38,284 nt of DNA from an uncultured Clostridia bacterium. GTDB lineage: Bacteria > Bacillota > Clostridia > Oscillospirales > Acutalibacteraceae. Each line of letters starts with the position of its first letter. The stretch's first letter is position 1. Location of the stretch: contig CAMHJC010000011.1 in NCBI GenBank assembly GCA_946185345.1, forward strand, positions 1-38,284, in the 5' to 3' direction. A program made the translations under genes and the position numbers. Shown here piece after piece: positions 8,151 through 38,284 of this stretch. A model generated the notes under the pieces. That model did no database searches. It was not told where the DNA came from and saw nothing but the letters and a program-made list of their open reading frames with translations.

Positions 8151-9152
8151 TTATTGATTGCTCCCAACAAACTGAGATTTAAACGCCGCAATGGCTTCGC
8201 TGTCGATGCTGATCTCAGTGGCAAATTCGCTGTGGATCACGCTTTCCAGCTGATCCTCCACTTCCGTGCGCCGCAGAATCGGCAGGTGATTGCTCCTGTG
8301 GAATCCTTCTGCGCGGTGATCGATGCTGATCACCAGACTGCGGCAGAAATGCTGCATGGCAAAAACGCCGCCGTGAAGCCGTGTGCCGACATAGTCGACA
8401 TCACCGTTTTGCAGCACATCACGGAATCTGCTCAGCGAATAGATCCTGGCAAAAGGCTCGATGCCGGCCTGCTTTTCAAGTGAGGCTAGATAGCTCTCGT
8501 CATCCGTGGTCTGAATCCACGCCCATACGGTTTTATAATTGCGCCTGAGTATCTCCAGCATCTTCAGGTCACGCATTCTGTCTGTCTGCGGACTGTAGCC
8601 GCTGACACTCATAACGCAGTTGGGGGCTTTCTTTGTCGGGATTTTTTCGCAATGTTCCGGCGTCAGCTTCCAGAGCGTCGGACAGCCGGTATTAATCGCC
8701 CGGCAGCCGAGTGATTCCACGACCCTTCGGGTCAGATCGTCACGCACGCTGTGGACATATTCCTTTGACAGCACCTTGCGATACAGATGCCTTGCGTAAA
8801 AGTCGAGCTTTTCGGTGGCCTGAGTGGTGCCGGCGCCGATCAGAACACAGTTTTTGTAAATGGACAGATTCGATGGGTAAAGCTGCCACTGGGAATTGAT
8901 TTTTCCGAATCTGGTCTGGGCGATCAGATTGGTCCCGCAGATGAATTTCCAGTCGGCGTTCTGAAAATATCTGATTTTGGTATTCCGGTGAAGCACCTGC
9001 TTCATGGAGAAATTATTGACATGCGTCGCCAGACGCAGGGAAAAGTGTTCGTCAAAGACATCGGACATATTGTCATATATGGAGTCAAGAATGATCTCGT
9101 CACCGACATTGCTTGTGCCGAGAGCCGTATCAAACACAACAATCTTCTTCAA
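8151..9152 (-). CDS. Polysaccharide pyruvyl transferase family protein
   Basis: Members of this family (CsaB/WcaK type) transfer a pyruvyl group from phosphoenolpyruvate to sugars in surface polymers, creating a negatively charged ketal. The N-terminal VVFDTALGTSNVGDEIILDSI carries the N-x-G-D/E-E segment typical of the family. VLIGAGTTQ, HSVRDDLTRRVVESLG and YVGTRLHGGVFAMQ (the R-x-H segment) follow in the expected order over 333 residues. Translation starts at TTG: AAGGAG lies 8 nt upstream, and the nearby ATG is out of frame and stops after three codons. The 5' side of the gene is separated from licD by the MITE-like element. Confidence 0.88.
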   Translation of the reverse strand: MKKIVVFDTALGTSNVGDEIILDSIYDNMSDVFDEHFSLRLATHVNNFSMKQVLHRNTKIRYFQNADWKFICGTNLIAQTRFGKINSQWQLYPSNLSIYKNCVLIGAGTTQATEKLDFYARHLYRKVLSKEYVHSVRDDLTRRVVESLGCRAINTGCPTLWKLTPEHCEKIPTKKAPNCVMSVSGYSPQTDRMRDLKMLEILRRNYKTVWAWIQTTDDESYLASLEKQAGIEPFARIYSLSRFRDVLQNGDVDYVGTRLHGGVFAMQHFCRSLVISIDHRAEGFHRSNHLPILRRTEVEDQLESVIHSEFATEISIDSEAIAAFKSQFVGSNQ

Positions 9153-9169
9153 TCGGGCATCTCCTTTCC

Positions 9170-9500
9170 TTGAGGATACTTAGGTGATTGTATAATTACT
9201 AAAATGGCGTAAATCGGGGAATTTACAGATTTGTATCAATCAGTTTTTTTTCCGATTCGGGCAAAGGCTGATTGGAAAAAATCAACCCTATCCATGCGCC
9301 TTACATTGTTTTACGTCGAAGTGCGTTGTAGCGATGGGCTCTGCCCCTGACTTTTTGCCGAAGGCAAAAAGTGCTGCCCCGCAAGGGCGCTGCCCTTGAC
9401 CTGCCAAAGGAGCCATGCCCCTTTGGCATCCCACGCTCGCTAATTATGACGCTGCGCTTGCTTTTTCATTTTGCTTTTACAATCGCCTATTGAGGATACA
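9170..9500. mobile_element. MITE-like non-autonomous element with terminal inverted repeats and target duplication
   Basis: The element spans about 9180-9490 and has no coding capacity. Its ends are imperfect inverted repeats: the left end reads TAGGTGATTGTATAA and the reverse complement of the right end reads TAGGCGATTGTAAAA. The sequence TTGAGGATAC occurs directly on both sides (9170-9179 and 9490-9499), as expected of a 9-10 bp target-site duplication. Inside are three hairpins in a row: CTTTTTGCC/GGCAAAAAG (9351-9371), CAAGGGC/GCCCTTG (9382-9398) and TGCCAAAGG/CCTTTGGCA (9402-9428). This accounts for the 349-bp gap between the licD and pyruvyl transferase genes. A related left end lies at 38191. 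The transposase that mobilises it is not in the window. Confidence 0.82.
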
Positions 9501-9501
9501 T

Positions 9502-10497
9502 TCACCGCTTGTCGGGCAAATAACCGTCCGCATACCGTGAATTCTGCTCCCCCGGAAGTCTCAGTTCAAGAATGACGTGTTCCTCACGGTCCTGCTCTTC
9601 CGGAATCGTCATGTAATCGCCGTACATGTGTGTGAGATAGGCGTCATAATCCTTCGGCACCTGCCACATATGTCCTTCGTACTCCATCGGCACGGTTTCG
9701 ACAAAGCTCTCACGCCTGTACAATTCGCCGAAATAATGATTGCGTCCGCCCGGAACGGATACGTATTCCGAGCGGCTGTTTTTGCAAAGACCGTAGCACG
9801 TCTGGGTAAGAATCGCCCAGCGCCGCACCGTCATAAAGCAGAGCAGTCTGCCGATGCGAATTTTGGTTTTAAACACCTTGCGTATATCCTTCAGCTTTTG
9901 TCTGTCGTCAAAATCAGGATTGTTTTGCAGTAAACGGACAAGATCCATCATAAGACGGCGGTTTTTGTAAAAATTCCGGCAGGAAAGCAAAAATCCCATG
10001 CCCATACAAAAAAAGCCGTGTACCTTACGAAGCAGGGAATTGTCAAAGGTGTTTTCTATGCGAATCAAATCCACAAAAATGCCGCAGTCCTCCCGGCCGA
10101 CGTCCTCCTTACCCCTCACAATGCTGTCTCTGAGACGGACTTTGTTGATCATGATGCCGTACCCGGGAGTGCGGCAGGTTTCCAGCGTGTACTTGCCGGG
10201 ATATTTTTTCTCAAGTGCTTTGGCAAAACGGTCAAAATCACTGCCGAGAATGTCTATATCTATGTCATCGTCCCACGGAACAAAGCCATGATGTCTGACC
10301 GCTCCCAGCGCAGTGCCTCCGGTAAGGTGATAGGTGATTTTTTCTTCATCACAGATCGCTATAATATCCTCTGCGATGGACAGTACAACCTGTTGGTACC
10401 GCTCAAGCAGATCACCTTCTATTTTGATCACGCCTTTGGTATATTTGCTGATCAGCTTAAAGAGATCAAATGTAGAATAATTCTTTGATCGTCCCAT
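9502..10497 (-). CDS. LicD family phosphotransferase
   Basis: LicD proteins belong to the nucleotidyltransferase fold and attach phosphocholine or a related phospho-group to teichoic acids and other surface glycans. The signature THLTGGTALGAVRHHGFVPWDDDIDID (about residues 55-83) contains the G-G-T-x-L-G and W-D-D-D-x-D metal-binding residues, and YGIMINKVRLRDS follows. At 331 residues the length is normal. AGGGG precedes the ATG by about 6 nt. The MITE-like element begins immediately after the stop codon, with the target duplication only 2 nt away. The transferred group is inferred only from the family. No choline kinase or CDP-choline gene is present here. Confidence 0.9.
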   Translation of the reverse strand: MGRSKNYSTFDLFKLISKYTKGVIKIEGDLLERYQQVVLSIAEDIIAICDEEKITYHLTGGTALGAVRHHGFVPWDDDIDIDILGSDFDRFAKALEKKYPGKYTLETCRTPGYGIMINKVRLRDSIVRGKEDVGREDCGIFVDLIRIENTFDNSLLRKVHGFFCMGMGFLLSCRNFYKNRRLMMDLVRLLQNNPDFDDRQKLKDIRKVFKTKIRIGRLLCFMTVRRWAILTQTCYGLCKNSRSEYVSVPGGRNHYFGELYRRESFVETVPMEYEGHMWQVPKDYDAYLTHMYGDYMTIPEEQDREEHVILELRLPGEQNSRYADGYLPDKR

Positions 10498-38189: not shown

Positions 38190-38284
38190 ATAGGTAATTG
38201 TAAAAGTGTAGGAATAGCGTAAATCGGGGGCTTTACAGAATTTGCAAAAGCAGGCTTTTCTCCATTCGGAGCAAGGCAAATTTT
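38190..38284. mobile_element. Left end of a second MITE-like element, cut by the window edge
   Basis: From 38191 the sequence TAGGTAATTGTAAAA matches the terminal repeat of the element at 9180-9490. The shared core GCGTAAATCGGGG and a following TTTACAGA lie at the same offsets. About 38 of the first 50 positions agree without gaps. Only 95 bp are visible, so the right end and target duplication cannot be tested. It lies 28 bp upstream of the divIVA TTG. Confidence 0.75.

Follow-up and report, generated by a model that had tools for sequence, protein, structure and literature searches.

The window analysed here, a stretch of 38,284 nucleotides, carries a licD-family gene and a downstream gene encoding a polysaccharide pyruvyl transferase, and the two are separated by a short element (Table 1). 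A reading made from the sequence alone (the sequence-only reading) had described this element as a MITE of about 310 bp with 10-bp border repeats, lying 2 nt from the licD stop codon, and the boundaries found here agree with it: TTGAGGATAC is present exactly at both ends of the element, between licD and the pyruvyl transferase gene. The ends had been read as 15-bp imperfect inverted repeats, and TAGGTGATTGTATAA (9181–9195) and TTTTACAATCGCCTA (9475–9489) are indeed 87% complementary. A single base, 9180, lies between the MITE and the duplication on the pyruvyl transferase side. On the minus strand, the junction is laid out as TGA-AT-GTATCCTCAA-[element]-A-GTATCCTCAA-GGA-AAGGAG-ATGCCCGA-TTG. 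The body, taken to be non-coding with three hairpins, has stems at three sites and accommodates no ORF of at least 90 aa within 9181–9489. The element had been assigned to no named family; an Rfam search returned sub-threshold matches, none at the gathering score, and searches of plasmid and phage databases gave no match. The window holds a second family copy at its far end, with AAAGGAGG found 12 nt past the gene-side end and ahead of a minus-strand ORF.

Table 1. Coordinates of the element, its hairpins and the neighbouring features in the window
Feature	Position	Strand	Remark
MITE, 309 bp	9181–9489	-	minus-strand reading: hairpin side (9489) first, gene-side end (9181) last
Distal (hairpin-side) terminal inverted repeat, TAGGCGATTGTAAAA (minus strand)	9475–9489	-	
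Proximal (Shine-Dalgarno-side) terminal inverted repeat, TTATACAATCACCTA (minus strand)	9181–9195	-	
Target-site duplication, upstream copy, GTATCCTCAA	9490–9499	-	licD stop codon 2 nt before
Target-site duplication, gene-side copy, GTATCCTCAA	9170–9179	-	AAGGAG 3 nt (GGA) past its edge
Shine-Dalgarno AAGGAG of the pyruvyl transferase gene	9161–9166	-	proposed target motif
Start codon TTG of the pyruvyl transferase gene	9152–9150	-	
licD-family gene, upstream of the MITE	9502–10497	-	Pfam
Polysaccharide pyruvyl transferase gene	8151–9152	-	Pfam; its ribosome-binding site is the putative target
Hairpin A, stem TGCCAAAGGGGC / GCTCCTTTGGCA	9402–9428	-	stem pairs covary between copies
Hairpin B, CAAGGGC AGC GCCCTTG	9382–9398	-	stem pairs covary between copies
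Hairpin C, ACTTTTTGCC TTC GGCAAAAAGT	9350–9372	-	unrelated palindromes instead in other copies
Second family copy, gene-side end only	38191–38284	-	cut by the contig end

The hairpins of the window copy are perfect or near-perfect, and on each strand the element has a more stable predicted fold than any of 100 dinucleotide-shuffled versions (z -4.1 and -3.3). Conservation of the stems was assessed by counting pairs and counting stems. One pair is C-G in 19 copies and G-C in 8, a second is C-G in 31 and G-C in 5, and a third is A-U in 22 and C-G in 11. Among 56 sequences there are 161 stems of at least 6 bp (64 in mononucleotide-shuffled sequences), with 75 different arms, and whole hairpins are swapped for unrelated palindromes between copies. 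RNAalifold found almost no structure in the full alignment because palindromes of unlike sequence do not align. Judged by these stem-preserving changes, hairpin pairing is maintained between copies, either at the level of RNA or of single strands or through correction of imperfect palindromes. A role as intrinsic terminators was rejected, since in the leader orientation no U-tract follows the hairpins; it is possible that they tune operon expression. A GC-rich hairpin core is also found apart from these terminal repeats (L095, L111, L113 and L104, in genomes G008, G006 and G001), in some cases right after a stop codon, and since G006 and G008 contain it with no such ends, it may be a separate module. 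In two congeners the element stands at one and the same gene (L108 and L109), its body measuring 314 bp in one and 438 bp in the other, so internal hairpin modules appear to be gained or lost in place.

A dispersed family and its empty sites

The sequence-only reading had proposed that the host genome be searched for the terminal repeat and that orthologous operons be compared, and both checks were run. The draft host genome (2.5 Mb) gave 61 matching pieces in a BLASTN search with the element, and the terminal-repeat pattern, with up to 2 mismatches, gave 77 matches versus 1 for the reversed pattern. In a first search of relatives, 16 of 17 congeners had family matches, and outside the genus only one genome did, with a weak match; the exact end pattern has matches in 15 of the 17, several of them with just one. 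Matching named GTDB records consist largely of rumen 'Ruminococcus sp.' and Clostridiales MAGs, and since the scan behind them demanded AGGAG near the end, they were left out of the targeting evidence given below. Exact flanking repeats of 9–14 bp border 10 of the 32 paired copies in the host genome, and repeats of 8 bp or more occur in 0.1% of mismatched flank pairs used as a control.

In eight congeners licD and the pyruvyl transferase gene are adjacent, 19–49 nt apart, without the element, and the closest of them (LicD 80% identical) has TGACCTTAGCCTATTACTGTAAAGGAGCGTTCCCATTG as the intervening sequence. Within this sample, the window insertion is therefore confined to its own lineage. Because the family is dispersed and these eight junctions are empty, relatives do not all carry the segment at the same place, nor are its terminal repeats confined to this site. 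The hallmarks of a MITE are thus present: terminal repeats common to an autonomous element, a target-site duplication with an empty site, and dispersed non-coding copies. The copies share ancestry, but their insertion sites are separate events, since both the duplications and the genes differ from copy to copy. Element length varies widely, from 53 bp (L138, little beyond the two terminal repeats) and 76 bp (L069) to 721 bp (L136), and each of these three adjoins a Shine-Dalgarno-like motif. At L025 (contig G000:C2, approximately 1566–1904) two gene-side ends stand in tandem before one Shine-Dalgarno sequence and are separated by the same duplication, as though one address had been used twice. 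Terminal-repeat pairs 0.8–4 kb apart, as would mark autonomous copies in the genus, were absent among the matches listed.

The Shine-Dalgarno motif as the probable insertion address

In 30 of the 32 paired host-genome copies, a Shine-Dalgarno sequence and an ORF follow 12–21 nt beyond one end, and this is always the same end, except in one copy whose hairpin orientation is doubtful. The pattern persists in 80 copies across the genus. When 59 copies were oriented by their hairpins alone, without use of the Shine-Dalgarno sequence, the motif lay 11–19 nt past the gene-side end in 49 and past the other end in 3; at random positions (200 kb of the same genome), 1.8% meet the Shine-Dalgarno criterion. 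Three terminal-repeat pairs in GTDB loci, picked without reference to this pattern, are all adjacent to a Shine-Dalgarno sequence, and one of them (L189) has a duplication and the exact register described next. The sequence-only reading was right about a MITE with a target-site duplication and an unnamed family, and it missed the Shine-Dalgarno address and the single orientation.

The spacing is tightest when measured from the duplication. Among 28 MITEs with an intact duplication, GGAG begins at +6 past the duplication in 18 and at +7 in 5; thus, AAGGAGG usually lies 3 nt past the gene-side edge. The opposite flank has no GGAG in 26 of the 28. In autonomous copies, GGAG is at +6 in 13 of 18. 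Across the family the register is not absolute, with deviations in L297, L348, L349, L351 and L160. The duplications of the MITEs are 9–14 bp long, and since their edge on the Shine-Dalgarno side is held in register, one cut would be nearly fixed relative to the motif and the other variable.

Two features of the insertion sites bear on what is being recognized. Some copies (for example, L009 and L096) sit just past a sigma-70-like promoter when the flanks are read by eye, and targeting of promoters or transcription starts was considered; it was rejected, as 38 of the 80 copies lie within 60 nt after the end of a same-strand ORF. The common factor of the insertion sites is the Shine-Dalgarno sequence and not a promoter. 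In addition, L290 and L314 lie within open frames of at least 404 and at least 291 aa, at TTGGAGG and TGGGAGG, respectively, in the same register. These insertions inside frames at GGAGG indicate that a start site is not needed and that the motif itself is read. L148, which at first gave the impression of a further coding insertion, was dropped as ambiguous. In the literature we found no report of Shine-Dalgarno targeting by any transposon; a curated entry for the group may exist.

Autonomous elements and the proposed insertion mechanism

The sequence-only reading dealt with a single element, and the autonomous transposon behind it is not visible from the window alone. Insertion sequences with the same terminal repeats, 1699–1794 bp long, occur at four loci: L186, L198 and L223, which are GTDB loci matched by end sequence (1.70–1.72 kb, with a DDE transposase), and L262, which comes from the same family as the host. 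The repeats TAGGCGATTGTAAAA / TTTTACAATCGGCTA are borne by the 1.7-kb transposase elements L186, L198 and L262. The full-length transposase frame, of 475 aa, is that of L223; the sequence of L198 is partly masked and the frame of L186 is cut short. At L186 the duplication TACTACCAAAA is followed by ACA-AAGGAGG. The link between transposase and MITEs is thus one of terminal-repeat identity and a common address. Across the autonomous group the repeats are the same or related, and address and register are kept down to 32% identity. The boundaries of these copies were located by seeking inverted ends and direct repeats around transposases, without use of the Shine-Dalgarno sequence. Past the duplication, this blind search found AAC-TAGGAGG (L318), AGA-AAGGAG (L294), AAG-TAGGAGG (L320), CTA-AAGGAGG (L315), TAT-AAGGAGG (L296), GCA-AAGGAGG (L299), AAT-AAGGAG (L308, the copy at 32% identity) and GAT-TAGGAGG (L353), among others. 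The L186 site and, in the same register, the GGGAGG or TTGGAGG sites of L290 and L314 also came from this search. The direct-repeat search found no intact duplication at L291, L287, L223 and L288.

The transposase matches DUF772 and, weakly, DDE_Tnp_1. Residues D148, D285 and E417 (L223 numbering) are conserved in 16–17 of 17 sequences and invariant across a 10-sequence alignment, and the four cysteines C330, C356, C372 and C376 are conserved as well. No relative was found in the PDB, and the predicted structure (mean pLDDT 56, from 7 input sequences) is of too low quality to be searched against known folds. Among 391 genomes of the class, 26 carry relatives, and others lie on one Butyrivibrio and one Roseburia plasmid and in nine IMG/VR contigs; no transposase of this type was found in 18 genomes of the genus, most of them fragmented MAGs. 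A DDE_Tnp_1 (PF01609) element of the genus was rejected as the mobilizer, as none of 20 loci examined has these terminal repeats. On plasmid pCY360 of Butyrivibrio proteoclasticus (L286), end segments recur in a way that suggests a relative of the insertion sequence in tandem copies, and PLSDB gives no gene under the transposase there. Compared with other members, L299 may carry its transposase gene in the opposite direction with respect to the ends; the Shine-Dalgarno sequence remains with the same end type.

Known elements resemble this family in part. IS4-group elements (IS4, IS231) make 10–13-bp duplications by DDE chemistry, both similar to what is found here, but their target motifs differ and the genus DDE_Tnp_1 loci (0 of 20) do not share these ends. 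The IS1182 family (for example, IS1272) provides the best NCBIfam model for the transposase (80.6 bits) and shares with it DUF772 and a DDE domain, a length of approximately 1.7 kb and terminal inverted repeats. However, eight scanned transposases of the group score 50.7–82.9 bits against a cut-off of 270, and in a tree they and canonical IS1182 transposases fall into two groups with a 100/100 branch between them. In this phylogeny, the transposases described here stand beside IS1182 as a group of their own with full support. IS1272 replaces inverted-repeat targets (PMC5678879), and the canonical IS1182 controls L322 and L324 have palindromic targets, whereas the group described here makes 9–14-bp duplications beside AAGGAGG. 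No such register emerged when the same boundary procedure was applied to canonical IS1182 elements and to other DDE elements from the genus. The BOX, RUP and SPRITE repeats of Streptococcus pneumoniae are likewise short, structured, non-coding and dispersed, and are thought to be parasitic and moved in trans (PMC3049150); unlike the MITE, they have no ribosome-binding-site address reported in the parts of that account consulted, and their ends and hairpins differ.

With a probability of roughly 0.8, we interpret 9181–9489 as a non-autonomous copy of an insertion sequence whose DDE transposase takes the Shine-Dalgarno motif as its address. Visible in the sequences are the target duplications and their register, a single orientation, an orthologous site that is empty, and autonomous elements that share ends and address; from these we infer how the motif is read and the steps of pairing, capture, cutting and joining. 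The transposase would pair the two unlike ends and capture DNA containing (A)AGGAGG, making one cut approximately 3 bp 5' of AAGGAGG and the other 9–14 bp further upstream. Once the element is joined to the cut target, repair would duplicate those 9–14 bp between element and ribosome-binding site, and the element would become part of the 5' leader. Because ribosome-binding site and start codon are kept, such an insertion should be survivable even within an operon. At the window site, the gap from licD to the pyruvyl transferase gene was approximately 30 nt before insertion and is 352 nt now; with this widening, translation of the two genes is probably no longer tightly coupled, and conserved hairpins would now lie between them.

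The same proximity could arise by survivorship, if insertion were random and selection left the copies that lie between genes with an intact ribosome-binding site. Genes are dense, coding insertions are usually harmful, and nearly half of the copies (the 38 above) do sit in short operon gaps. Selection would not, however, set the duplication edge 3 nt from AAGGAGG, nor place coding insertions in this register at GGAGG. Under survivorship, copies would also be expected between convergent genes and in either orientation, and the pattern is absent from canonical IS1182 elements and from other DDE elements. We consider this explanation improbable.

Guidance by the ribosome or mRNA is quite improbable as well. 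The 3' tail of 16S rRNA ends ...CCUCCUUUCU-3', and this tail, paired with the Shine-Dalgarno sequence, or an RNA intermediate could position integration; the 3-nt offset equals the overhang that such a 16S tail would have past AAGGAGG, and the motif is on the sense strand in both clear coding insertions. Yet the three bases beside the duplication are mostly not complementary to the tail, insertion at GGAGG within coding sequence needs no start site, DDE transposases work on DNA, and two sense-strand cases are no evidence for a strand bias. Because of the coding insertions and the DDE chemistry, direct reading of the motif in DNA is favoured over the translation machinery.

The covarying stems and the constant leader orientation would also suit a fixed regulatory RNA held by selection in 5' leaders of many genes, and not mobile, but this is very unlikely: it is contradicted by the empty orthologous sites, by the target duplications and the identical terminal repeats on transposase-bearing elements, and by neighbouring genes that are unrelated. 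A site-specific recombination cassette (integron-like or of the tyrosine-recombinase kind) with att direct repeats, which the hairpins and border repeats might recall, can be set aside, as the direct repeats differ in sequence site by site and the partner enzyme has conserved D, D and E residues with DUF772/DDE_Tnp_1 matches.

On the best reading, these elements form a family of insertion sequences and MITEs that addresses the Shine-Dalgarno motif and leaves the ribosome-binding site intact. Transposons usually spare their host by chance or by using rare landmark sites; a family that targets the Shine-Dalgarno motif would land at a signal carried by many Clostridia genes, in a single orientation and register. 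Such a family would parallel, in bacteria, the retrotransposons found beside Pol III genes. The yeast elements Ty1 and Ty3 insert upstream of such genes, an address that is likewise safe and linked to a gene-expression signal, but they are retrotransposons guided by protein contacts and have no homology to the elements described here. A broader view, which we offer as tentative, is that an insertion-sequence family of Clostridia has evolved to use the ribosome-binding site as a universal address, through a protein domain reading AAGGAGG or through the translation machinery, and that its MITEs supply the whole genome with interchangeable structured 5' leaders and thereby rewire the translation of operons. 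A Shine-Dalgarno address would explain why a structured repeat stands in front of so many genes, and an element with this specificity could serve as a tool for placing leaders before genes.
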